In this document: piece by piece, positions 51,031 through 64,000 of the stretch
How the letters are laid out: every line of letters begins with the position of its first letter
How positions within the stretch are numbered: position 1 is the first letter of the stretch
Assembly: GCA_018716285.1 (NCBI GenBank)
Contig: DVKD01000039.1
Location: 1 to 64,000 of the forward strand
Length of the DNA stretch: 64,000 nucleotides
DNA from: Candidatus Merdivicinus faecavium
GTDB lineage: Bacteria; Bacillota; Clostridia; Oscillospirales; Ruminococcaceae
Direction of reading: 5' to 3'
Notes under the pieces: model-generated
Database searches by the model: none
Seen by the model: the letters and a program-made list of their open reading frames with translations, nothing else
What the model was told of the DNA's origin: nothing
Program-made: the position numbers and the translations under genes

Positions 51031-51876
51031 TTATGCTTTCCCCTCGCTGCCGAACACCTGCATCTTGCGGATCGTCGCCGCCTTGACCGCCTCCGTGATG
51101 GCGGGCATAAGGTCGGTCAGTCCCTTCCCCGCCGCCCAATTGGCGTGAGCGGCGTCCGCCGCGGCGCAGTTGATGTCGGTGAAGATGTTGACCTTGGCGA
51201 TGCCGTTCTGGATGCAGCGCCGGAAATCCTCGTCCGACAGCCCCGAGCCGCCGTGAAGGACGAGCGGCGCGCCGACCAGCCCCGCGATTTTGGCAAGGCG
51301 GTCAAAATCCAGCCGCGGCTTGGCCCGGTAGGCCCCGTGGGCGGTCCCGATGGCGACGGCGAGGGCGTCGACCCCGGTCGCCTCCCAGAAGCGGCGGGCC
51401 TCCTCCGGCTTGGTGTAGATGGAATCATCCGCACCATCGGATTCATCTGTGCCCGCGTTCGCGCCGACATGGCCGAGCTCCGCCTCGACGGTGATCCCGC
51501 GGCTGTGCGCTTCGCGGGTCAGGGCGGCGACCTCCCTGCAGTTGCCGTCAAAGTCGAGGGTGGAGCAGTCGTACATCACCGAGGTGAAGCCGAGCTCCAT
51601 CGCCTGATGGACCCGCTCCCCGGTCAGGCCGTGGTCATAGTGGAGGACGACCGGCACCTTTGCCTTCCGGGCCATGGGGACCAGGAAATAGGCGAGTTCC
51701 TCGAGCTCCGCATAGGGCAGCAGGATTTCGGCGGTGCCGATGATGACGGGGGATCGCATCTCCTCGGCGGCGGCGAGGACGCCTTTGGCCATCTCCAGGT
51801 TTACCGTGTTGAAGAGCCCGACGGCGTAATGCTCCCTGGCCGCCCGGGGCAGGATATCGTTCAGATTTACTAACAT
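51031..51876 (-). CDS. Class II fructose/tagatose-bisphosphate-type aldolase
   Basis: Zinc-dependent aldolase that splits ketose bisphosphates or related ketose phosphates. The 281-residue protein has the metal motif VVLHYDHGLT, the second region VEAELGHVGANAGTD and the substrate/metal segment AVAIGTAHGAYRAKPRLDFD, followed by VLHGGSGLSDEDF and KVNIFTDIN. The FBA and tagatose-bisphosphate branches cannot be separated by eye. The start at 51876 follows AAAGGAG by seven bases. It is the last gene of the kinase-isomerase-aldolase operon, which suggests that it splits the phosphorylated ketose made by the kinase. Confidence 0.88.
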   Translation of the reverse strand: MLVNLNDILPRAAREHYAVGLFNTVNLEMAKGVLAAAEEMRSPVIIGTAEILLPYAELEELAYFLVPMARKAKVPVVLHYDHGLTGERVHQAMELGFTSVMYDCSTLDFDGNCREVAALTREAHSRGITVEAELGHVGANAGTDESDGADDSIYTKPEEARRFWEATGVDALAVAIGTAHGAYRAKPRLDFDRLAKIAGLVGAPLVLHGGSGLSDEDFRRCIQNGIAKVNIFTDINCAAADAAHANWAAGKGLTDLMPAITEAVKAATIRKMQVFGSEGKA

Positions 51877-51889
51877 GGGGCTTCTCCTT

Positions 51890-52438
51890 TCAGTCTTCGA
51901 TCTCGGGGATGCGGCGGATGCGGGGGTCGGTGAAGATGTCGTACTCGTCGTAGCTCGGCGTGCTGAACTCCGAGACGACCGCGCCCTCATCGCCCGCCTG
52001 GAACCAGTGGCGGGTGTTCGGGCGGATGGTGTACTGCTCGCCGGGCGCCAGCGCGATCTCGTGCCAGACCGTATAGTGCTCCTCGCTGCCGGCCGGAGGG
52101 GTGCAGGCAGGGGTTTGCGCCGGATCCCCCTCGACGTAGAGGTAGCAAAGGCCGTACCGGCAGCGGAAGGTTTCCTCCTTGCCCGGGTACCCGAGGGAGG
52201 GGATGGGGGCGTGGCGGTGTTCCGGGCAGGTCTGGCGCGGCATGAGGGCCATTTCCTTGGCGCAGCAGCGCTCGGTGTTGACATACACGATCAGCTGCAG
52301 CCCGGTCCGGGCGAGATCCTCGAGTCCAAAGTCGGCGACTTCGAGGTTTTCGATCTCCTCTGGGGTCAGGGTGATATGGGCCTTGTCAAAGAGGGCGAGG
52401 GCCTTTGCTTTTGCGGCTTCATAGTCGGATTTTTTCAT
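51890..52438 (-). CDS. D-lyxose/D-mannose ketol-isomerase (cupin)
   Basis: Interconverts D-lyxose and D-xylulose, and often D-mannose and D-fructose. The 182-residue cupin matches the D-lyxose isomerase family in length and in its metal ligands: His-x-His in CPEHRHAP, Glu in GKEETFRCRYG and a later His in RPNTRHWFQAG. The start ATG 52438 overlaps the stop of the kinase gene in TGATG, with AAAGGA nine bases upstream, so translation is coupled. It is followed 13 bases later by the aldolase. Confidence 0.83.
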   Translation of the reverse strand: MKKSDYEAAKAKALALFDKAHITLTPEEIENLEVADFGLEDLARTGLQLIVYVNTERCCAKEMALMPRQTCPEHRHAPIPSLGYPGKEETFRCRYGLCYLYVEGDPAQTPACTPPAGSEEHYTVWHEIALAPGEQYTIRPNTRHWFQAGDEGAVVSEFSTPSYDEYDIFTDPRIRRIPEIED

Positions 52439-53400
52439 CACAATACATCCTTTCGCTGTAATTTGGGATGGCGTTCCATAAAATCGAGCACGGCCGGAAG
52501 GGAGGGGATCCCCGTCGAGGCGCCGACGGCCTGGATGCAGTGGGCGCCGACCGCGTTGGCGAGCCGCCCGCATTGTTCAAAGCTCCAGCCCTGCGCAAGC
52601 CCGCAGAGGAAGCCGGCGCAGAAGGAATCCCCCGCCCCCGTCGTATCGACCGGGCGGATTTCGGTATAGGCGGGGAGGAGAAAGCGCTCCTCCCGGCTGG
52701 GGGCGAAATAGGCGCCGTCCCCGCCGGTCTTGACGACGACCTGCCCGACGCCGCAGTCAAAAAAGAAGTCGGCGATCTTTGAAAGCTCCCGCTCCCCGGA
52801 CAGGGCCGCCGCTTCGTCGTAGCTGGGCATAAACAGGTCGAGCCCCGGCAGCGCCTCCCGGATCTTGGGCAGCCAGACGCCGTCAAAGTCGCAGGCGGTG
52901 TCCATGACGGTGAACTTTCCCTGCTCCCGCATCCTGCGCAGCAGCTGTCCGCAGGGCGCGCCGTCAAAGGAGGTCAGCAGCAGCGCGCCGCCGATGAAAA
53001 TGATGCCGCACTCCGCGAGCAGCCCTTCCGGGATCTCCTCCGCGCGCAGCGCCGAAGTCGATCCGGGGCAGTAGAGGAAGGAGCGCTCCCCCTCGGAGCT
53101 CACGCAGACGGCCGAGGTGGTGGTGGCAGCCGACGGGTCGCGGAGCACGCCGCGGGTGTCCACCCCCGCTTCCTCGCAGGTGCGGAGGACGAAATCCCCG
53201 AAGCTGTCCGCGCCGACCTTGCAGCAGAGCAGGGCCGGGACTCCGAGCTTCGCGAGGTCGATGGCGGCGTTGGAGGCGCAGCCGCCGACGTGGGTCGACG
53301 CGCCCGCGATCTTTTGCAGTTTCCCCGGCGCGGGGAGGGCGTCGACCGGCGACAGGATGATGTCGGTCGTCACGCTGCCGATACAGCAGATCTTTTTCAT
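52438..53400 (-). CDS. PfkB family sugar kinase
   Basis: The 320-residue ribokinase-fold protein has the N-terminal glycine pair (THVGGCASNAAIDLAKLG), and the C-terminal signature DTTGAGDSFCAGFLCGL with the catalytic Asp. It phosphorylates a ketose, nucleoside or sugar; in this operon a ketohexose or ketopentose such as fructose or xylulose is the natural inference. It is the first gene of the three-gene operon, with GGGGG before ATG 53400 and a promoter at 53511-53539. Confidence 0.9.
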   Translation of the reverse strand: MKKICCIGSVTTDIILSPVDALPAPGKLQKIAGASTHVGGCASNAAIDLAKLGVPALLCCKVGADSFGDFVLRTCEEAGVDTRGVLRDPSAATTTSAVCVSSEGERSFLYCPGSTSALRAEEIPEGLLAECGIIFIGGALLLTSFDGAPCGQLLRRMREQGKFTVMDTACDFDGVWLPKIREALPGLDLFMPSYDEAAALSGERELSKIADFFFDCGVGQVVVKTGGDGAYFAPSREERFLLPAYTEIRPVDTTGAGDSFCAGFLCGLAQGWSFEQCGRLANAVGAHCIQAVGASTGIPSLPAVLDFMERHPKLQRKDVL

Positions 53401-53419
53401 AGAATTCCCCCTTTTTTGT

Positions 53420-53448
53420 TTGACATCTTATGGAAAATGCGGTATGAT
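53420..53448 (+). promoter_or_regulatory. Promoter facing the ROK regulator
   Basis: A perfect TTGACA (53420-53425) and TATGAT (53443-53448) are 17 bases apart on the plus strand. It leaves a 180-base leader before the ROK start and runs through the divergent operon promoter. Confidence 0.65.
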
Positions 53449-53510
53449 GGAGAAAAAGTGCCCGCCTTTTGCGATATGAAGGCGGCTCGCTTTTTCTCCC
53501 GATTAACCAC

Positions 53511-53539
53511 AGTATACACCATTCCGTCCTATTTGTAAA
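53511..53539 (-). promoter_or_regulatory. Promoter of the kinase-isomerase-aldolase operon
   Basis: TTTACA (53534-53539) and TATACT (53511-53516), with an extended TG, are 17 bases apart on the minus strand. Confidence 0.7.
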
Positions 53540-53562
53540 TAGCATATATAAATTTATTTGCA
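53534..53562. promoter_or_regulatory. Candidate ROK repressor operator
   Basis: TGTAAATA (53534-53541) and TATTTGCA (53555-53562) form an inverted repeat with 7 of 8 bases matching around an AT-rich 13-base centre. It covers the -35 of the operon promoter, as expected for a NagC/XylR-type repressor site. Confidence 0.5.
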
Positions 53563-53628
53563 CGCTTCCCTCTATGGGAGGGCAGATGCAAAAACACGGC
53601 TGCCGGCCGCACTGCAAGGAGGATCCCT

Positions 53629-54831
53629 ATGAAAAACCGCGGAATCAACAGCGAGCAGGCCAAACGGACCAACCGTCTGCTGGTGCTGCAAAATCTGAGC
53701 ATGACGGGCGGAGCTTCCCGCACCGAGCTGACCCGGCGGGTCGGCCTGGCCAAAATGACCGTCACGAACATCACGGCCGAGCTGATCCGCAGCGGCATCC
53801 TCCGCGAAAGCCAGTCTCTCGGCCACGACCGGCCCGGCGCAGGCCGCCCCCAGATGCTGCTGAGCTTTACGCCAAAAGCGCCGGCCGTCATCGGCATCTG
53901 GCTTTCCCGCGACGCCTGCACCGGCATCCTCGCGGATATGGCCCTCAAAGTTCTCGAAACCCGCACCCATCCCCTTTCCGCCGGCGAGACCGCCGAAACG
54001 CTGCTGGACAAGTTTGCGGACCTCTGCGCCTCCCTCCGCGGCGCGCTTTCTCCCGGCCAGCCGCTGCTCGGGGCGGGGATCGCCTCGATCGGCCCGCTCG
54101 ATCTGCAAAGCGGCAGTATCCTCAACCCGCCGAACTTCGGCGGGCTCCATGACATCCCGGTCTGCGCCGCTTTGTCGGAGCGCCTGGATCTGCCGGTTTT
54201 TCTGGAAAACGACACCAACGCCGCCGCCCTGGCCGAAAAATATTTCGGCTGCTGCGCCTCCTGTTCAAACTTTGTCTACGTCGGCCTGACCAACGGCCTG
54301 AGCGCCGGCATCGTCCTGCGGGACGCGCTGCTGCACGGCCAGCACGGCTTTGCGGGGGAACTTGGCCACACCGTCGTCGATCCGGCGGGTGCGAAATGCT
54401 ACTGCGGCCGCCGCGGATGCCTTGAGACGCTGGTCGCCGCCTCCCGCCTGCTTCGGGAGGCGGAGGGACGGTTTGGATACCCTTTCCGGGATTTTGCGCA
54501 GCTTTGCCGTTTTTGCGAAAGCAGGACGGAGGGGGAGGAGTGGCTCGCCGGGAAGCTCGAGCCGCTTGCGCTGGCGCTTGCCAACCTCGCAAACCTCGTC
54601 GACCCGGAATGCATCCTGCTTGGGCACGAAGGCGCCTGCCTCCCCGACCGCATTCTGGACCTGCTCGCCCGCCGGGTCAACGCGGAAGTTCTCGCGGGAG
54701 AGCGCGCGGGTATCCGCATCGGGCGCAGCTCCTTCGGCCCGCTCGCGGCGGTCTACGGGGCGGCGGTGGTCGTCCTCAAAAAGGTGTTCGACGGCGAGCT
54801 TGGCTACGCGCAGTTTTTCCGCGAAGCGTGA
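53629..54831 (+). CDS. ROK family transcriptional repressor (NagC/XylR type)
   Basis: The 400-residue protein has an N-terminal winged helix (SRTELTRRVGLAKMTVTNITAELI, residues about 30-55), then a ROK sugar-kinase-like domain with GIASIGPLDLQSG, FLENDTNAAALAEKYFG, and the zinc motif AKCYCGRRGCLE. Such repressors release DNA on binding a sugar or sugar phosphate. AAGGAGG lies six bases before ATG 53629. It is divergent from the kinase-isomerase-aldolase operon and is probably its repressor. Confidence 0.9.
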   Translation: MKNRGINSEQAKRTNRLLVLQNLSMTGGASRTELTRRVGLAKMTVTNITAELIRSGILRESQSLGHDRPGAGRPQMLLSFTPKAPAVIGIWLSRDACTGILADMALKVLETRTHPLSAGETAETLLDKFADLCASLRGALSPGQPLLGAGIASIGPLDLQSGSILNPPNFGGLHDIPVCAALSERLDLPVFLENDTNAAALAEKYFGCCASCSNFVYVGLTNGLSAGIVLRDALLHGQHGFAGELGHTVVDPAGAKCYCGRRGCLETLVAASRLLREAEGRFGYPFRDFAQLCRFCESRTEGEEWLAGKLEPLALALANLANLVDPECILLGHEGACLPDRILDLLARRVNAEVLAGERAGIRIGRSSFGPLAAVYGAAVVVLKKVFDGELGYAQFFREA

Positions 54832-54919: not shown

Positions 54920-55414
54920 TCAGGCCAAAAAGCGGATGCCCGCGGCCTCGCTGTATTCCTCGGGGGTCCCGACCAGGACGGTCAGAGTGAGATTTTTCTC
55001 GAGCCGGATGCCGACCCGCCAGAGCCCCTCCGCCTTCGGCAGCGGCAGCTCAACGGAGAAGTCCTTGGCAAGGCCCTTCCCCTCCGCGCGGAGGGAGAGG
55101 CGCAGCGCCGAGCCGTCCTCCAGATCATCGGGCTCGAGGCGGAGGAATTCGGTCTCGCTCCAGACGGTCTGGCCGTCCGCGCGGCCGAGATCGGCCAGGA
55201 CGACAGTCTCCTCCGTCTCCTTGACGCCGCCGTCCCCGTTTTCATAGCGGTAGACGACCGCCTTGAGGGAGCTCAGACTGCTGACCAGCCGGGCGCGGTG
55301 TTCGGCGCAGAAGCTGTCGACCGACCCGCCTCCCCCGAGATCCCCGAGCGCGGGCATCCCGCAGTAGGGGCAGGCTGTCCCCTCGTAAGATGTCTGACAT
55401 AATTTGCATACCAT
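54920..55414 (-). CDS. Small zinc-ribbon protein of the AAA-protease/Hsp70 cluster
   Basis: The 164-residue protein starts with a zinc ribbon (Cys3, Cys6, Cys15 and Cys18 in CKLCQTSYEGTACPYCG), then a Gly-rich linker (GDLGGGGS), and a domain of about 120 residues predicted to be beta-rich (ETVVLADLGRADGQTVW, FSVELPLPKAEGLWRVGI). I recognise no family for the second part. The start at 55414 follows AAAGGAGG by eight bases; a longer frame begins at 55435. It is the last gene of the cluster, 20 bases after the coiled-coil gene. It may be a substrate adaptor, but this is only inference from the zinc-ribbon fold. Confidence 0.7.
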   Translation of the reverse strand: MVCKLCQTSYEGTACPYCGMPALGDLGGGGSVDSFCAEHRARLVSSLSSLKAVVYRYENGDGGVKETEETVVLADLGRADGQTVWSETEFLRLEPDDLEDGSALRLSLRAEGKGLAKDFSVELPLPKAEGLWRVGIRLEKNLTLTVLVGTPEEYSEAAGIRFLA

Positions 55415-55434
55415 ATCGGAATCCTCCTTTATCA

Positions 55435-56436
55435 TCAGGAATTTGCACTGCGTTCGAGCATCTCTTCACTCGCGGTAACGCCCAGCTGGATCTCCTCCTG
55501 TACGAGGGCAAGCCAGCCTGCGATCTGTTCCAGATCGCCCTTGACGGCGGCGGGGAGGTCCTTCTCCCCTTTGTAAGCCGACTTTTCGGGCAGCCGCGCC
55601 TGAAGCCGCGCTAAAACCTGGGCGCGTTCAGCCTCGTTGCGGTCCCAGAGGTTCTCCCATGCCTTGCGGAATACCTCGGTCCGGGCGGCGATCTCCTGCT
55701 GCGCGCGTTCCAGTTCGGTGCGGGAGGCTTCGAAAGCGTCCAGCTGCTCCTTTGCCCGGCTCGCGCGCTCCCCGGCCTGCTCCATAGCCGATTTGCGGTC
55801 GGCAAGGGTCTTTGTGAGCGACGCTTCCTGCTGGAGGAGGGCGTCCTCCTCGGCCTTGTACCGCGCGATCTCATCGTCCAGGGCCTTTTTCCGGCTGCGG
55901 ACGGAGGCGAGCGTCTCTTCCCGTGTCTTAGAAAGCTCCTCCAGTTCCTGGCAGCGGCGGTCGATCTCCGCGGCCTCCGCTGCCGCCTGGTCCAGACGGC
56001 CGTCCTCAAGCTCCTCGATGCGGGCGCGCTTGCGCTCATTTTCCTTCCGGCGCTCGAGAAGCCCTGCGCGTTCCGGCTCGAGCCTCGCCAGAAGCGCGTC
56101 CAGCCGGCTGCCCTCTGCATCCGCCTCGGCGGCGAGGTTCTGGATCTCATTGAGGGAGGTCTCCGTCTGCTGCGCCTGCCGGACAAAGCCGTCGAGACGC
56201 TGGCGCTGCGCGCCGGCTGAAAAAGCCACGCTGTTTGCCGCGGCGAGGCGGAGCAGGCCGTTGAACAGCGCGCTCAAGCCGGTCGCATCCTGCGGCGTAC
56301 AAGTCAGCCGGTCGACGCCGGAGGGGCTTGCGAATTCCTTAAGCGCTTCGGTGAGGAATCGAACGGCGTCGCTGCCGGTGGGCTGCGCTTTCTGGCCGAT
56401 GACCTCCAGCATATACTGAATATTGCGGGTATTCAT
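55435..56436 (-). CDS. Coiled-coil protein of the AAA-protease/Hsp70 cluster
   Basis: The 333-residue protein is almost wholly helical: a small N-terminal domain (about 1-85), then a long coiled coil (about 85-270, rich in Glu, Ala, Arg, Lys and Leu heptads such as RLDALLARLEPERAGLLERR), and a C-terminal helical end. There are no signal peptide, transmembrane segment or catalytic motif. ATG 56436 overlaps the Hsp70-like stop by ATGA, so the two proteins are made together and probably interact. It could act as a scaffold or a nucleotide-exchange-type cochaperone; neither is shown by sequence. Confidence 0.65.
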   Translation of the reverse strand: MNTRNIQYMLEVIGQKAQPTGSDAVRFLTEALKEFASPSGVDRLTCTPQDATGLSALFNGLLRLAAANSVAFSAGAQRQRLDGFVRQAQQTETSLNEIQNLAAEADAEGSRLDALLARLEPERAGLLERRKENERKRARIEELEDGRLDQAAAEAAEIDRRCQELEELSKTREETLASVRSRKKALDDEIARYKAEEDALLQQEASLTKTLADRKSAMEQAGERASRAKEQLDAFEASRTELERAQQEIAARTEVFRKAWENLWDRNEAERAQVLARLQARLPEKSAYKGEKDLPAAVKGDLEQIAGWLALVQEEIQLGVTASEEMLERSANS

Positions 56437-58307
56437 CTTGATTTCTCCCCTTTCTGATCTGCGGCGGCGGTGCGGAATATGAGAAGGCCGTCGTAAAGCT
56501 CGTGCAGGGTGCCGAGGCGGCGAACCTGCGGCGTGCCGCTTTCCACAAATTTGGGCGTCGGCGGGAAAACGCTGTCATCGTACCGCGATTCGACCGGCAC
56601 GATATGGAGGCTCAGCTGCAGGGATTCGTCGAGCGAAAAGCCGATGAAGAACAGCAGATTGCTGCCGAGGACGTCGCTTCCGAAGGTAAACGCCTTCTGC
56701 AGCTCCTGGGCCACCGGCACCCGCTGGCCGAACGCCGGGTTGTCGGTCAGGTTGATGAGGATCTGGTCGATCTTGCTGGCCCCGCAGGGGAGCGGCGTCC
56801 CGTCGGCGTTTAAGAGGTAGCAGGGCTGCCCTTCCCGCACGACGTCGTCCTTGCGGATGGAATAGAGGTCCACCTGCTTCCCGTCCGGATCGAGGGCGCA
56901 GAAGCCGACCGAGAAGGGGCTGGTCTGGATGACCTCGATCACATGGTTGGCGGCGAGGGTGAGGCCGTAGGAGACGGCCATCGCCCGCTCGCTCTGGACG
57001 AGCTGCTGGCTGAACCGGGGATCGAAGCCCTCGCCCTGCCAGCCCATCTCCTCCTTGACCTGCGCCTCGACCAGCGGGAAGTTGCAGAATCCGCCGCAGA
57101 GGATGATCCGGAAGAGCCCTTCGCCGGAGTTCTCGTTCCGTCCGGCGTCGGCAGCGGTCCAGGGGATGCCTTTTTCGTCCAGGTACTGGCGGACCTCGGC
57201 GATCTCCTTGCGGATGACCGGCGCGATGTGGCGGTCATAGGCCCCCATCAGCAGGCCGTAGCTGATGTCCAGCGTGTCCTCATCCGCCCCGGCCTCGTCG
57301 TCATCCAGGCCGTTGAAGTCGATAGAAAAGGCGGTCTCCTTCATCTCCTCCGCCTCATCCATCCCGCCGAGGTAGTAGATTTCGCGCAGGGCGCGGAGGT
57401 TGTCGCTGATGCTCGTGCACTCCCGCCCCTCTTCCGCGGCGCGGGAAACGAGATTTTCGCCGCTGTCGCCCAAAATGGTCGCCTCGACCGCCCGGACGTA
57501 CTGCTGGAACTTCGGCCCCCGGACGATCTCCTGCTCGCTGCGGCCGGTCAGGGCTGCGAGCGCCATCAAAACGACCATCTCCATATACGCGATGCCGGAG
57601 GCGCCGAGGGTGCGGTCGGTATTCTCGCCGACGCCGTTGCGGAAAACGCCGCGGATCCGGCTGCGGGGACCGTTCTCGTCGGCCTCGCAGACGGTGAGGT
57701 CGAGGGTGCCGCCGCCCGCGTCAAAGACGAAGCAGTGCCCGCGGAAGGGCCGGCCGGCTTCCCGCCGGTATTTGTGGACAAAGTAGGCGCAGGCCGCGAC
57801 CGGCTCGGAAACCAGCCGCACCCGCTTGACCTGCGGGAGGCTTTTGCAGATGTCGAGGAGCTGGGTCCGCGCGTCGTAGGTGCTCTCCTTGCGGAGCCAG
57901 CTTTCCGGCACCCCGATGGCGACCTCCTCCAGCTCGGAGAGGGAAAAATTCTGGGCGACGGCGGAAAAAATGAACTGGTAGTAGCGCCGGCAGATCTCCT
58001 CCGGGGTATCCGGGGCGGTATAGCCGCGCTCGGCGATCATCTCCTGGTTCTCCTCGGCAAGCAGGAGCTTCCAGCCGGTCCAGCTGCGGCAGGGGCGGTC
58101 AGCCGTCGCCTGATTGACAGCAGTCTTTGCCTGGGCGGCAAACAGGTAGGAGGTCTGCCCCTTTCTTGTCTTCGCAGCGACGATGGACGGCAGGTAAGGG
58201 CTGTCCATCCCCTGGGTGATAAAGGGGTGAAGCTGCTCATCCTCCCCGAGGTAGGAGACCGAAAAGTAGGTAGAGCCTCCGTCGACGCCAAATCCGCTGT
58301 ATTTCAT
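56433..58307 (-). CDS. Hsp70/actin-like ATPase
   Basis: The 624-residue protein has an actin-fold ATPase: phosphate-1 loop GVDGGST (7-13), the Hsp70-type VSEPVAACAYF (166-176), phosphate-2 loop DAGGGTLDLTV (196-206) and the adenosine motif LCGGFCNFPLVEAQ (403-416). The C-terminal part (about 455-620) is beta-rich but lacks a recognisable DnaK substrate-binding lid. It is not DnaK: the N-terminus, spacing and C-terminus differ and no dnaJ or grpE lies nearby. AAGGAG precedes ATG 58307. It lies between two coiled-coil genes in the cluster. Confidence 0.82.
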   Translation of the reverse strand: MKYSGFGVDGGSTYFSVSYLGEDEQLHPFITQGMDSPYLPSIVAAKTRKGQTSYLFAAQAKTAVNQATADRPCRSWTGWKLLLAEENQEMIAERGYTAPDTPEEICRRYYQFIFSAVAQNFSLSELEEVAIGVPESWLRKESTYDARTQLLDICKSLPQVKRVRLVSEPVAACAYFVHKYRREAGRPFRGHCFVFDAGGGTLDLTVCEADENGPRSRIRGVFRNGVGENTDRTLGASGIAYMEMVVLMALAALTGRSEQEIVRGPKFQQYVRAVEATILGDSGENLVSRAAEEGRECTSISDNLRALREIYYLGGMDEAEEMKETAFSIDFNGLDDDEAGADEDTLDISYGLLMGAYDRHIAPVIRKEIAEVRQYLDEKGIPWTAADAGRNENSGEGLFRIILCGGFCNFPLVEAQVKEEMGWQGEGFDPRFSQQLVQSERAMAVSYGLTLAANHVIEVIQTSPFSVGFCALDPDGKQVDLYSIRKDDVVREGQPCYLLNADGTPLPCGASKIDQILINLTDNPAFGQRVPVAQELQKAFTFGSDVLGSNLLFFIGFSLDESLQLSLHIVPVESRYDDSVFPPTPKFVESGTPQVRRLGTLHELYDGLLIFRTAAADQKGEKSR

Positions 58308-58339: not shown

Positions 58340-59650
58340 TCAGCCCACCGCCGTAAAGCGCTCGAGGTCGGGGACCTTGCGGCAGTCGTGCTGCGCGTCG
58401 GGCTGCGCGCCGATTTCTTCGTGCAGAAGCTGCCCGATCTCAGCCGACGTCTGGTGGGCGCGGCCGTAATCATCCTCACCGTCATAGACGATGAAATCGA
58501 CATTGGGCTTGCCGGAACCGTCGCCGCCGATGCGGAATGCGACCCGGTTGCCGGAGCCGTCGTTGTAAACTAAGGACATATCCTCCCGCTCATCGCCGCC
58601 GCAGTAGTCGGCGACCTCGCGCTGCCAGCTGCTGCCGGTCATGACGTCGTTGATGGCGAGGGCCTGCCGGAGGGCGGCCTCGGAGCGGATGAGCGCGTCG
58701 GTGGCCTGCTGGGAAGCGACGTGCGCTTCCTCGCGGACGGCAGCCAGAGCGGCGGCGACTTCGTCAAGCTGAGAGAAGCCGACCGATTCGTCTCTGTCGG
58801 CCCGGTCGAGGACGGCCATCTGCGCATCGAAACGCCGGCGCAGGTCGGTCACAGCGCCGCGGGTCCAGAAGTCGACGTCGCAGGGGCGGGTGACCTGTTC
58901 GCCGTCGGATTCAAAGGTCACCTCGCGGCTTCCGAGGGTTTCGAGCTCGGAGAGCAGGGCGCTCGCCTCTTTGCGGAGGAAGAGCAGGGTGTCGGCGAAC
59001 TGGCGGTTCTGGATAGTCAGCCGGCCCTTGAGGGCGTAGGCTTCGGGGACGCAGACATTCGCGGTGCCAAGGGCGGCCTCGGCGTTGCCGGCGCGGAGGG
59101 AGGCTTCACCGGCTTCCAGCTGCTGGCGGAGGGTGGCAAAGCGCTCGCCCTCAAAACGGCCGGGGTGCAGGCCCTGCATCTCCTCGACCTGGCCGCGGAG
59201 CTCTTTCAAAGCGCAGGCAGCGGCCTCATGGGCGCTCTCCTTCTGGGCGGCAATGGCCTGGAACTGGGCGGCGGTCTCCTTCGACAGGCTCTGGACCTGG
59301 TCGCTGATGCCGCGGATGCGGGTGTTCATCTGGCCCATCGCCAGGCGGATGGACTCGAAGCTCTGCTGGGTCTGGGCCTGTTCGGCCTGCTGCTGGCGGG
59401 TGAGCGCATCGATGCGGTCGTTGAAGCGCCGGTTTAACTCTGCCGTCTCCTTGCGGGCGGCGTTTGCCTCCCTGCGGCTGCGTTCGGCGGCGGCCTCCGC
59501 TTCGCGGCGCCTGCTTTCGAGCTCGCGGCTGCGCTGCTGTTCCCGGCGGAGGCTCTCCTGGGCGGCTGCGGCCTGGGCGCGGTTGGCGGCGCTTTCGCGC
59601 ATCTGGCGGTTGTAGTCGTTGCGGTTGACTACCATAGTGTATCCGGACAT
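58340..59650 (-). CDS. Coiled-coil protein with unrecognised C-terminal domain
   Basis: The 436-residue protein has a long coiled coil at about residues 15-160, very rich in Gln, Arg, Ala and Glu (RREQQRSRELESRRREAEAA), then a helical middle, and a distinct C-terminal domain (about 340-436) with GGDEREDMSLVYNDGSGNRV and PNVDFIVYDGEDDYG, which I cannot assign. No membrane segment or signal. The start at 59650 follows AAGGAG. It lies 121 bases after the AAA-protease gene and 32 bases before the Hsp70-like gene. The C-terminal domain recalls modules that bind or sense a partner, but this is inference. Confidence 0.65.
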   Translation of the reverse strand: MSGYTMVVNRNDYNRQMRESAANRAQAAAAQESLRREQQRSRELESRRREAEAAAERSRREANAARKETAELNRRFNDRIDALTRQQQAEQAQTQQSFESIRLAMGQMNTRIRGISDQVQSLSKETAAQFQAIAAQKESAHEAAACALKELRGQVEEMQGLHPGRFEGERFATLRQQLEAGEASLRAGNAEAALGTANVCVPEAYALKGRLTIQNRQFADTLLFLRKEASALLSELETLGSREVTFESDGEQVTRPCDVDFWTRGAVTDLRRRFDAQMAVLDRADRDESVGFSQLDEVAAALAAVREEAHVASQQATDALIRSEAALRQALAINDVMTGSSWQREVADYCGGDEREDMSLVYNDGSGNRVAFRIGGDGSGKPNVDFIVYDGEDDYGRAHQTSAEIGQLLHEEIGAQPDAQHDCRKVPDLERFTAVG

Positions 59651-59771
59651 ACAATACCTCTCCTTCAAAAATCTATTTGGGTTTCTGCGGGATTTTCTCC
59701 CTTTCGCCCTAATAAAATCACGGGAGGATGTTTTCTGTCAGATGGGGAAAAATTTTTTTGGATAGTATCTG

Positions 59772-62700
59772 TCACGCCTCGTCCGCTCCCCCATACGCCT
59801 CGCGGGCCAGCGCCCAGAAGTTGCGGATGTGGGCCATGAAGTTCACCTCATCGCCTGTTTCGCCGAAGGCGCCCTGGAAGATGCCGCCGGCATAGCCGTC
59901 CTCGAGCAGGACGGGGCTGCCGGAGTTGCCGTGCTTGCCTTCGATCTGGAGGTCGACGACCTCGCGCACGCCCCTCGTGCGCTTGATGCCGGCTGCGACC
60001 CTGCCGTCATAGAGGTGCAGGTTGGTCAGCCCTTTCGGGAAGCCCGGCATCCAGACCGGCTCGCCGATGCGGCAGTTGTAATCCGCCGGCGCCAGGGGGA
60101 TGCAGGGGTAGCTGTCGCCCCGCTCCAGCCGGATGACCGCGATGTCCCGCGCCTCATCCGCGAGCAGGACCTGGCAGGGGCACCAGACCGGCTGCCCGTC
60201 CCGGTACCCGATCCGGATCTCGACCTTCACCGCATCCCGCACGCAGTGGGCGCAGGTGAGGACGTCCCCCTCCGGGGAGACAAGGAAGGCGGTGCCGGTG
60301 CCGAGGCCGCCGGCCGTCTGGAGTCTCAGGTAGAGCACCGCGTTCAGCCGCTCTTCCGGGTCGGCCGGAACGGCGTTGTCGGTGGCCTGGGCGATCCGCT
60401 CGAGGGCCTCCCGCGCGGCACGGAGGCCGGCGGGGGTCCGGAAGGTGCGGACTGCGGACGATGCGGCAACGGTGCGGTCTTCCGGGTCGATGTCCTCCGG
60501 CGTCAGGATCCAGCGGTCGGGGAGCTTATCGACATCCTGCCCGGCTTCCGCCGCCTTCTGCATCCGCCGCGAATGGCAGGTGATCGAGCGGTTGATATAG
60601 TTGCGGACCTCCCGCGCGTTGCCGAATTCCGGGTCGTTTTGGGCGATCCAGGCCGCGAAGATGCGCTCGCTTTCGGCTAAGAACTCCTCCGAAGCGCTGT
60701 CAAAATTCTCATTTTTGGTCATCACTTCCGCAATCTGCCGGAGCTCGGAAGCGGCATAGTTTGGGAAGTGCACCTTAGAAAACCGGGACTTTAAGCCCGG
60801 GTTCGTTTTGATGAGCTCATCGAGCTGCTTTTCATACCCGGCGAAAATCACAGTTACCTCGCCTTTATGGTTTTCCACATATTTCATCAGCTCATCCAGC
60901 GCCTGCTCCCCGATGCGGGTATCCCGCAGGGTATAGGCCTCGTCGACAAAGAGGATGCCGCCGAGCGCTTCGTCGAGCTGCTTTTTCAGCTTCCCGATCG
61001 CGTCCCCGGTGAGCAGGCCCTGCACGTCGACCTCGACAAACCGGCCGTGACTGAGTGCGCCGATCCGGCGCAGGATCGGCCCCATCCGTTTGGCGACCTC
61101 ATTTTTACCGGTGCCGGGGTTGCCGACGAAAAGGTACGCCTCCCCTTTCTGGCTGTTTTTCGCGCCGCCGCGGGTGCCGAATTGGATGTTCGCCATCAGA
61201 TCCCTGATCTTCTGCTTCACATTGCCGAGACCGATCAGGCCGTCCAGCTCCTGCCAGGGGTCGGCGCTGAGCGCGCGCTTTTCCCAGTAGGGCTTCAAAT
61301 CCTCGTGGATGATGTCGGGGGTCATGACCTCCTGCCTGCCTTCAAACTTCAGCCAGGAGTCGCTGAGCGGCTGATAGAACTCGTTTTCCATCGTGCGGAT
61401 GTTCGCCCATTCCTTGTCGCTGCTCCGGCGGGTATTGTACCAGTTTTCAAAGAAGGCGGGCAGGCCCTTTTCCAGTTCGGGGGAGAAAGGGATATCCCGC
61501 GCCTTTTTGCGGAAGATGCGGTACAGCTGGTCGGAGGTGTAGTCGGGGATTTCGATTTGGGTGGGGAAACGGCTGTCAAAGCCCGGATACTTCTTAAACA
61601 GGTCGTGCGACTGCTGCTTGTAGCCCGCCAGAACGACAGCCATCGTCCCGCGGCGTTCCAAGGCAACGGTGAGCAGCGCGTCCATGATGTCCTTCTGGAA
61701 GCTGTCCCCGTCCTGATTGTCCCCGCCGTCCATCTGGTAAATCTCGTCGACAAAGAGGACGCCCTGGTCGGCTTCGTCCGCCTTCTGGCGCAGCATGGCC
61801 GAGGAGTGGCCGACGTACTTCCCTTTCAGGTCGGCTTTGGTGACTTTGACGACATGCCCAACCTTTAAGAGGCCGTAGTGGAGGAGCAGCATGCCGTAGT
61901 ACTCGGCGAGGGTAGTCTTGCCGGTGCCGGGAGGCCCTAAGAGGACGAGGTTGAAGTTCGGCGGTTGCCCTACAAACTGAACTTCGCTTCCGAACCGCTC
62001 GAGGGTGAGGGCGTCTGCGGCTGCTTCCTTCCGGCGCGCCCTGTTGGCCTGGCGGACGACTTCGAGAATATGCTTCTCAAGCTTGGCAAAGCCATTGGTG
62101 TCCCGCAGCCGGTCGAGCAGCTTCTGGTGCTTATTTTCCTGCTCCGCATAGGCGGCGCGGAGCAGGGGGCCGAACTTGTCGGGGTTGTCGCGCAGGCTGC
62201 GGCAGAAGGTGAAGACCGGGGCTTCGGGGTCGAAGCTGTAGACCCGCAGCTGGCTGCTGCTCTCCTCGCCGGGCTGCAGATGCTCCCGCAGATAGGCGAC
62301 CAGGACCTTTGCGAGCGCCGCCCGCTCCTCGGCGGTGATGGAAAGGTTATAGAAGACCGCGGCGCGGTCGAGCAGCCTGCCCGCTTCGTCGAGGCCGACG
62401 CTGCGCCCGCGGATCAGCCGGTATCCGAGCGTCTTCTCGAGCCCCTCGAGCGCCTTGCTGCGGGAATCCTGGCTCTTGTATTCCTCGACCTGCTCCTGCA
62501 GAAGGTAGGAGCAGATGGTCTCGTAGAAGGAGCTTTCGTGCTGGTAATCCTCGATCAGCCGCTCTTCGCTCCGGGTTGTAAAAATCATGATGCTGCGGCC
62601 GCGCCGGTATTCCCCGGTGCTGGCAATCAGGTCGCGCAGGATCTCCCGCACGCAGGGGAGGCTGAAATAGCAGAAAGATTCCTCCGGGAAAATAATCGCG

Positions 62701-63161
62701 GTGCGGAGCTTTTCCGACTGCATACAGGGGAGGATGACATTCCGGAAGTTCTGCTCAAAGCTCTTGGCATTGTTGATAAAGGGCTTTTTCATCCGGACCG
62801 GGCCGATTTCGCTGCTGCGGCCCGCATAATCCCCGTCCATTTCGGCAAAGCGGTCCCGTCCGAGCTTATTCTGGGAAGCGTTCTTCGCGCCGTGCTTCTG
62901 CAAAAACTCCTCCTTGCTGCCCGAGAATTTCTCATAATCCGCAGCGAAACGGAAGGCGTACTCGGAGAAGCGGTCGTAGGTCTCGAAATAGAGGATCTTC
63001 GCGTCGTTGACGGCGAAGACGATCCGATCAAAGCCCTGCTCGCGCAGGGTGCGGTAAAGGTAGGCGTTCTGGTCGATGACCTCGAGGGATGGGAGGATAA
63101 AGCGGTCCCGGGTGCAGGCATAGAAATAATAAAGGCTCCGGTTTTCATGAAATTGTAACAT
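59772..63161 (-). CDS. Tandem AAA+ ATPase fused to a trypsin-like serine protease
   Basis: The 1129-residue protein has three parts. Residues 1 to about 390 are an N-terminal region I do not recognise. Two CbbX/EccA/SpoVK-like AAA+ modules follow: AAA1 with Walker A GPPGTGKTT (409-417, Lys415) and Walker B VLFVDEIYQM (Asp472-Glu473); AAA2 with the ELDGLIGLGNVKQKI lead-in, Walker A GNPGTGKNE (680-688, Lys686) and Walker B ILFVDEAY (Asp740-Glu741). AAA2 has Asn where Thr or Ser normally follows the Walker Lys. Residues about 935-1129 are a chymotrypsin-fold protease with His972 (LTCAHC), Asp1006 (ARDIAVI) and Ser1080 (GNSGSP). There is no signal peptide, so it is cytoplasmic. The likely role is ATP-driven remodelling coupled to proteolysis. 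Confidence 0.85.
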   Translation of the reverse strand: MLQFHENRSLYYFYACTRDRFILPSLEVIDQNAYLYRTLREQGFDRIVFAVNDAKILYFETYDRFSEYAFRFAADYEKFSGSKEEFLQKHGAKNASQNKLGRDRFAEMDGDYAGRSSEIGPVRMKKPFINNAKSFEQNFRNVILPCMQSEKLRTAIIFPEESFCYFSLPCVREILRDLIASTGEYRRGRSIMIFTTRSEERLIEDYQHESSFYETICSYLLQEQVEEYKSQDSRSKALEGLEKTLGYRLIRGRSVGLDEAGRLLDRAAVFYNLSITAEERAALAKVLVAYLREHLQPGEESSSQLRVYSFDPEAPVFTFCRSLRDNPDKFGPLLRAAYAEQENKHQKLLDRLRDTNGFAKLEKHILEVVRQANRARRKEAAADALTLERFGSEVQFVGQPPNFNLVLLGPPGTGKTTLAEYYGMLLLHYGLLKVGHVVKVTKADLKGKYVGHSSAMLRQKADEADQGVLFVDEIYQMDGGDNQDGDSFQKDIMDALLTVALERRGTMAVVLAGYKQQSHDLFKKYPGFDSRFPTQIEIPDYTSDQLYRIFRKKARDIPFSPELEKGLPAFFENWYNTRRSSDKEWANIRTMENEFYQPLSDSWLKFEGRQEVMTPDIIHEDLKPYWEKRALSADPWQELDGLIGLGNVKQKIRDLMANIQFGTRGGAKNSQKGEAYLFVGNPGTGKNEVAKRMGPILRRIGALSHGRFVEVDVQGLLTGDAIGKLKKQLDEALGGILFVDEAYTLRDTRIGEQALDELMKYVENHKGEVTVIFAGYEKQLDELIKTNPGLKSRFSKVHFPNYAASELRQIAEVMTKNENFDSASEEFLAESERIFAAWIAQNDPEFGNAREVRNYINRSITCHSRRMQKAAEAGQDVDKLPDRWILTPEDIDPEDRTVAASSAVRTFRTPAGLRAAREALERIAQATDNAVPADPEERLNAVLYLRLQTAGGLGTGTAFLVSPEGDVLTCAHCVRDAVKVEIRIGYRDGQPVWCPCQVLLADEARDIAVIRLERGDSYPCIPLAPADYNCRIGEPVWMPGFPKGLTNLHLYDGRVAAGIKRTRGVREVVDLQIEGKHGNSGSPVLLEDGYAGGIFQGAFGETGDEVNFMAHIRNFWALAREAYGGADEA

Positions 63162-63181
63162 ACGTCCATCTCCTTGCTAAA

Positions 63182-63384: not shown

Positions 63385-64000
63385 CTAGCGGAACTCCACC
63401 GGACAGCGGATCCCCGCGTCCGCGATCTCCTGCTGCCGGTTTCTCCAGGAACGCGGCAAGACGGCGCGCTGAAGGCGCCATTGGCTAAAGGCGGATTTGC
63501 CGAGATGCATTAAGCTGTCCGGCAGCTCGATCTCCTTGAGGTTCTCGCAGTCCTCAAATGTTTTCTCCTCGATCGCTTCCAGCCCCTCGGGGAGGGAGAT
63601 GGAACGCAGGGACGAGTTCCGCCAGAAGGCGCACTTCCCGATGACCCGGAGGGTGGAGGGGAGCTTTACCTCTTCCAGTTTTGTGCAGTGGTCAAAGCAG
63701 TAGTTGCCCAGCTCCCGCACCCCTTCCGGGATAAATATCCGGCGGACTGTGCCGCTTTCCCGCAGGGCGTTGAAACCGAGCCTGGTCACCGGCTGTCCCG
63801 CGAAGGTCTGCGGCACGGTGAGGACTTCCGGCGCTGCGGCGCCTTTTTTCAAACACAGAGCGCCGCTGCCGTCCATTTCCCAGAGCCTTTCATCGGCGGC
63901 GGGGTCTGGCTCCGGCCGGTTCCCGCGGGGGGATCGCTCCATCTGCCGGGGCCTGGCGGGATAGACAGGCTCCTGCGCCTGCAGGCGGGCGAGTTCCTCC
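63385..64000 (-). CDS. BspA-type leucine-rich repeat protein, C-terminal part
   Basis: The frame is open from the right edge to TAG 63385-63387, so at least 205 codons are seen and the true start lies outside the window; an internal ATG at 63942 has no clear ribosome site. From about the middle it carries BspA/LRR_5-type repeats of about 23 residues: VRRIFIPEGVRELGNYCF, LEEVKLPSTLRVIGKCAF, LRSISLPEGLEAIEEKTF, LKEIELPDSLMHLGKSAF. The part before the repeats is Pro/Arg/Gln-rich (LARLQAQEPVYPARPRQ). Such repeats bind protein partners. No signal can be judged because the N-terminus is missing. It lies 220 bases before the AAA-protease gene. Confidence 0.78.
   Translation of the reverse strand, partial: EELARLQAQEPVYPARPRQMERSPRGNRPEPDPAADERLWEMDGSGALCLKKGAAAPEVLTVPQTFAGQPVTRLGFNALRESGTVRRIFIPEGVRELGNYCFDHCTKLEEVKLPSTLRVIGKCAFWRNSSLRSISLPEGLEAIEEKTFEDCENLKEIELPDSLMHLGKSAFSQWRLQRAVLPRSWRNRQQEIADAGIRCPVEFR

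Follow-up and report, generated by a model that had tools for sequence, protein, structure and literature searches.

Members of the SpoVK/CbbX/EccA clade of AAA+ ATPases that have been characterised remodel specific targets, SpoVK and EccA having roles in envelope or secretion processes, and a survey devoted to the clade reported nothing to indicate that its members are fused to peptidases or interact with them (Delerue et al., PMC10659427). Trypsin-like proteases have been described in fusion with Hachiman and Avs proteins, where oligomerisation triggers the cutting of a pro-nuclease and where the protease step of Hachiman is under ATP control (Tuck et al., PMC12799240). Proteases of the trypsin type are also found, together with HSP70, GTPases and zinc ribbons, in the conflict systems collected by Kaur et al. 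(PMC7159879), whose text mentions neither CbbX nor SpoVK. Presented here is a gene of Candidatus Merdivicinus faecavium, a Candidatus Merdivicinus species, located in a stretch of 64,000 nucleotides (positions 1 to 64,000 of contig DVKD01000039.1, assembly GCA_018716285.1; hereafter the window), which joins two AAA+ modules of this clade to a trypsin-fold protease in one chain. The fusion is real and conserved. It brings known parts together in a new combination, and no paper on this domain fusion was found in the literature searched.

Architecture of the AAA+/protease fusion

The open reading frame begins with ATG, is open over its whole length (Table 1) and encodes an N-terminal domain (N-domain), two AAA+ modules (AAA1 and AAA2) and the protease, in that order. 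Pfam AAA matches two stretches of the protein (the best at residues 406-538, E-value = 4.8e-24), AAA_lid_6 is located at residues 832-891, and Trypsin_2 is matched over its full length (1-144/144) at residues 956-1094 (E-value = 3.5e-23), while the NCBIfam models for SpoVK, CbbX and EccA each give two matches. The Pfam and NCBIfam matches bear out the two AAA+ modules that the initial annotation had placed ahead of a protease in one chain, and the cytoplasmic location it assigned to the protein is also supported, since the sequence shows neither an evident signal peptide nor an evident membrane segment (Kyte-Doolittle mean over 19 residues at most 1.17). An assembly chimera or a frame artefact is ruled out, because two other genomes of the genus, Candidatus Merdivicinus excrementipullorum (L021) and L022, keep the same layout and gene order at 55-57% identity. 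Less similar proteins of this layout are found beyond the genus, in other genera and families (L037, L040, L067 and L166); across the fused family the AAA+ modules number one, two or four, and the protease is C-terminal in every member.

Concerning the protease, His972, Asp1006, Ser1080 and the glycine that follows the serine are invariant in 7/7 diverged fused proteins. In profile comparison with MucD, DegP and HtrA (E-value ~1e-20) the triad is aligned with theirs, so that what had been annotated as an intact-looking triad is confirmed as one in the HtrA/DegP (S1C) positions. The protease of the window protein shares 72% identity with that of L021, as against 52-60% for the N-domain and the AAA+ modules, and it has the lowest nonsynonymous rate of the chain, that is, the strongest purifying selection. 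Unlike HtrA/DegP, it bears no PDZ domain (none in Pfam, and the chain ends with the protease) and no signal peptide, it is joined to AAA+ modules, and it forms a group of its own in the protease tree, where a 100/100 branch splits the fused proteases from the HtrA proteins that belong to the same family of bacteria. This tree, which has long branches, is consistent with a single origin of the fusion.

The two AAA+ modules fall within the SpoVK/CbbX/EccA clade and yet are none of the three, because their NCBIfam matches stay under the respective equivalog cut-offs (286 < 423, 270 < 459 and 246 < 467 bits). AAA2 has its best sequence match with CbbX (3zuh/3syk, E-value ~4e-34), structure comparison of AAA1 and AAA2 with CbbX gives Z 20-21, and both modules harbor the GY sensor-1 signature of the clade and an arginine finger (AGYK...SRF in AAA1, AGYE...SRF in AAA2). 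The tandem modules, the predicted pseudo-AAA+ N-domain and the fused protease set the protein apart from the clade. The initial annotation had also stated that modules of the CbbX/EccA type are not known with proteases, which is what the clade survey reports (PMC10659427); the trait of having no peptidase partner, an empirical generalisation and not a definition of the clade, is broken by the seven fused proteins. All motor motifs are intact in AAA1 (Walker A GPPGTGKT, Walker B FVDE, pore loop KYVGH), whereas AAA2 of the Merdivicinus proteins and of L067 is devoid of this aromatic residue. The simplest reading of these motifs would be that the motor is AAA1, with AAA2 as a tier for structure or sensing. 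In the window species the Walker A of AAA2 ends with GKN in place of GKT, a one-base change, and Asn687 may represent either a degenerate site or an error of the metagenome assembly.

The N-terminal region had been annotated as novel, a view that did not survive as worded: it is a conserved domain of ~340 residues, and residues 1-340, when used as a profile, also detect the protease-less multi-AAA+ proteins of L038, L039, L072, L164, L165, L167 and L168. The domain thus defines a broader family, some members of which carry the protease. By sequence it has no homologue among solved structures, and its profile comparison with AAA+ is weak (7.5% only), which leaves the comparison of folds as the sole support for AAA+. 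A model of residues 1-289 (predicted local distance difference test, pLDDT, 71.5; predicted template modelling score 0.72) has nearly only AAA+ ATPases among the structural matches listed (Foldseek E-value 3e-3, probability up to 0.95; VIA Z up to 7.4 across the full domain with its lid). We consider it a probable degenerate AAA+ module, with scores in a range that a common arrangement could also give, and label it degenerate because the Walker A motif (GxxGxGK) is not present.

Gene neighbourhood and distribution

Downstream of the fusion gene, and on the same strand, lie genes for a coiled-coil, an Hsp70-like, a second coiled-coil and a zinc-ribbon protein, in that order (Table 1). Upstream, an array of genes with leucine-rich repeats (LRR) of the LRR_5 type occupies ~63388-84297 of the full contig (C24), and window positions 63385-64000 are its edge. 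The array represents an expanded cytoplasmic LRR family with the N-terminal tag CPVCGYDxSRDxxxYPSLARxR; several members harbor the CPVCGYD zinc-ribbon motif and a PSLA(R/K)-type tag is found in 12 frames. Past the array there is an NrdG-like radical SAM gene, followed by a possible sigma-like gene. A promoter scan gave nothing above chance.

The same gene set recurs in L021. Of the two coiled-coil proteins, the first is retained in the more distant fused loci L037, L040, L067 and L166, as is the radical SAM protein, and the Hsp70-like protein recurs in L037 and L067, with a partial match in L040 at the end of the contig stretch. The LRR_5 proteins are replaced by other zinc-ribbon proteins in L067 and by DUF6273 zinc-ribbon proteins in L040 (L040:12665-19514), the latter being a possible alternative recognition module. 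Protease-less N-AAA+-AAA+ loci with an adjoining DO-GTPase2-type GTPase (Pfam DO-GTPase2) are L039, L164, L165 and L168, of which L039 and L168 have an Hsp70-type gene as well; overall, this GTPase accompanies 4/7 protease-less loci and 0/6 fused loci. The operon, its partners and the alternation with the GTPase, none of them within reach of the initial annotation, are a better guide to function than the chain by itself.

The N-domain was detected in 13/396 genomes of the family and 2/391 of the class, while the fusion is present in 3/7 sampled Merdivicinus genomes and is otherwise scattered. Such a patchy distribution is typical of accessory systems.

Table 1. Features of the fusion gene and its neighbours in the window, and fused homologues outside the genus
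Feature	Position	Strand	Size or residues	Remarks
AAA+/protease fusion gene, N(predicted pseudo-AAA+)-AAA1-AAA2-trypsin-like protease	59772..63161	(-)	1129 aa	profile matches and homologues
Ribosome-binding site AAGGAG	63170..63175	(-)		8 nt upstream of ATG; sequence
N-terminal domain	62127..63161	(-)	residues 1-345	conserved; fold predicted to be degenerate AAA+, Walker A absent
AAA1	61347..62024	(-)	residues 380-605	Walker A, Walker B, GY sensor-1, arginine finger, aromatic pore loop
AAA2	60477..61268	(-)	residues 632-895	CbbX/SpoVK-like; no aromatic pore-loop residue; Walker A end GKN
Asn687 codon AAT, AAA2 Walker A (GNPGTGKN)	61101..61103	(-)		Thr or Ser in all relatives
HtrA/DegP-like trypsin-fold protease	59775..60329	(-)	residues 945-1129	no PDZ
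Catalytic His972 codon	60246..60248	(-)		alignment
Catalytic Asp1006 codon	60144..60146	(-)		alignment
Catalytic Ser1080 codon (GNSGSP)	59922..59924	(-)		alignment
Coiled-coil protein	58340..59668	(-)	442 aa	most conserved operon partner
Hsp70/actin-fold ATPase-like protein	56433..58307	(-)	624 aa	weak own Pfam match; homologous to L037 Hsp70, E-value 4.6e-21
Second coiled-coil protein	55435..56436	(-)	333 aa	
Zinc-ribbon protein	54920..55435	(-)	171 aa	compare L021:15454-15951
Zinc-ribbon and LRR_5 protein	63385..64000, leaves window	(-)	304 aa in full contig	first of array
Fused homologue L037			1110 aa	other genus/family
Fused homologue L067			1140 aa	other genus/family
Fused homologue L040			833 aa	single AAA+ module; other genus/family
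Fused homologue L166	L166:1864-7014		1716 aa	four AAA+ modules; other genus/family

Comparison with defence and conflict systems

The nuclease-protease pairs of the Avs1, Hachiman (HamMAB), Lamassu and DRT systems resemble the fusion in placing a cytoplasmic trypsin-like protease on a regulatory machine that depends on nucleoside triphosphates (PMC12799240). However, the protease is N-terminal in those systems and C-terminal in the fusion, and their regulatory part is a STAND module, a helicase or a reverse transcriptase, whereas here it is an AAA+ of the SpoVK clade. No adjacent pro-nuclease of the metallo-beta-lactamase fold was found among the five window neighbours scanned. In PADLOC, the fusion protease has similarity with RT-Protease_XI, LmuA and Avs1b. 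A known defence system was considered for the locus as a whole and rejected, the operon proteins scanned having no specific PADLOC match beyond generic folds.

The conflict systems built on DO-GTPase/GAP1 and HSP70 (PMC7159879) are similar in their HSP70-like and zinc-ribbon proteins and in the DO-GTPase2-type GTPases of the sister loci, but in the fused loci a protease is present and the DO-GTPase is lacking. Additionally, GAP1, tubulin and GrpE were not recognised in the window neighbours scanned.

Proposed mechanism and rival explanations

Judged by the chain and its operon partners, the protein is probably a protease with a new layout that can be switched and acts in signalling or defence. 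Specifically, we tentatively propose a site-specific signalling protease, gated by AAA+ and Hsp70, within a stress or conflict system, of which the gating, the substrate and the function are what we infer. The AAA+ part would oligomerise into a ring-forming switch with the trypsin/HtrA-type protease as its output. The Hsp70-like, coiled-coil and zinc-ribbon/LRR proteins would assemble and sense a trigger (stress, damaged protein or an invader), after which ATP turnover or re-assembly would expose or cluster the protease, and the protease would cut a partner, either an operon product or a host protein, at a limited site with no bulk degradation. AAA1 would serve as the motor and AAA2, in Merdivicinus, mainly as a structural or nucleotide-sensing tier, and the protease may stand in for the DO-GTPase2-type GTPase of the protease-less sister proteins. 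By analogy, this logic would be comparable to that of the protease fusions in Hachiman, Avs and Lamassu, and conflict systems based on HSP70 and GTPases offer a precedent (PMC7159879).

In favour of a gated signalling protease we count the triad kept in 7/7 proteins, the conservation of the protease, the motifs of AAA1 as against the loss of the aromatic residue in AAA2, the N-domain shared with protease-less proteins, the conserved partners, the GTPase pattern, the patchiness and the split in the tree. Several points weigh against it. The AlphaFold model of the full-length protein is poor (pLDDT 57.5) and its domain contacts are not readable; built on four sequences, it leaves the protease region largely unfolded (mostly pLDDT under 50) and the triad geometry not readable. 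Defence libraries match only generic protease, AAA and radical SAM folds, and no known effector (nuclease, pore or toxin) was identified among the partners. Iterative searches can exaggerate homology among coiled-coil proteins, and the alternation of GTPase and protease comes from few, partly related loci, L039 and L168 belonging to one genus.

In a bolder form of the proposal, which we regard as doubtful, immune or stress proteases under the control of AAA+ would form a new class, in which a SpoVK-clade stack of one, two or four tiers with an HtrA-type protease is regulated by the Hsp70-like and coiled-coil proteins and fed by the expandable array of tagged LRR/DUF6273 proteins, thus forming a receptor array on a protease machine.

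It is unlikely that the protein is an AAA+ protease like FtsH or Lon, in which AAA1 would unfold substrates that the Hsp70-like and coiled-coil proteins bring to it and thread them into a ring formed by the C-terminal trypsin-type domains, where they would be degraded processively in protein quality control. The order of N-domain, AAA+ and C-terminal protease in one chain is indeed that of FtsH and Lon, AAA1 bears an aromatic pore loop and every motor motif, and an Hsp70-like chaperone gene is nearby. However, the fusion belongs to another AAA+ clade, its Trypsin_2 protease is neither M41 nor S16, and it has no membrane anchor. The N-AAA+ core is also found without a protease in the sister loci, and threading into a protease is therefore not the basic role of the core; in Merdivicinus and L067 the tier adjoining the protease is the one that has lost the aromatic pore residue. 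Moreover, the clade members characterised so far act on specific targets (PMC10659427), and housekeeping quality control would not usually be so patchily distributed.

Rather improbable is a chaperone or remodelling complex that builds a cellular structure (LRR assemblies, envelope or spore components), with the protease making a maturation cut on partners such as the tagged LRR proteins. The relatives SpoVK and EccA act in envelope or secretion processes (PMC10659427), and the short N-terminal tag of the LRR proteins could be a docking or cutting site, but the LRR_5 proteins are exchanged for DUF6273 proteins in L040 and for other zinc-ribbon proteins in L067, the system is missing from most relatives, and the operon showed neither sporulation nor envelope genes. 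As for a catalytically idle protease that only binds peptides, a role reported for the majority of the trypsin domains fused to vWA in effector position in MoxR-vWA conflict systems, the invariance of His, Asp, Ser and the next Gly in seven diverged proteins and the strongest purifying selection of the chain make it highly improbable.

Apart from its mechanism, the fusion contradicts the general statement in the literature that proteases are absent from the SpoVK/CbbX/EccA clade, and introduces a layout with a trypsin-fold protease beneath an AAA+ stack of variable height. It is tied to an uncharacterised gene system of Clostridia, partly receptor-like, comprising Hsp70, radical SAM, coiled-coil and LRR proteins. 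If the proposed gating is true, the system would be a bacterial case of receptor-coupled protease activation, a question open to direct testing, given how compact the system is and that its catalytic residues and partners are identified.

A phage or plasmid origin was also considered and rejected: no record spans 80% of the fusion protein, and the matches listed end at the AAA modules. A single-protein query of viral contigs matched only the contig already known. An IMG/VR contig (L072:1495-17139) encodes three N-AAA+ proteins or modules (N-AAA+x3), TerD-like genes, an NrdG-like radical SAM gene and coiled coils, as well as kinase-, vWA- and PP2C-looking genes, and represents a further variant of the same core. 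In the window, the system is bordered at 51031-54831 by a probable sugar-catabolism cluster with, by sequence appearance, an aldolase-like protein, a cupin-type isomerase-like protein, a PfkB-like kinase and a ROK-type regulator.

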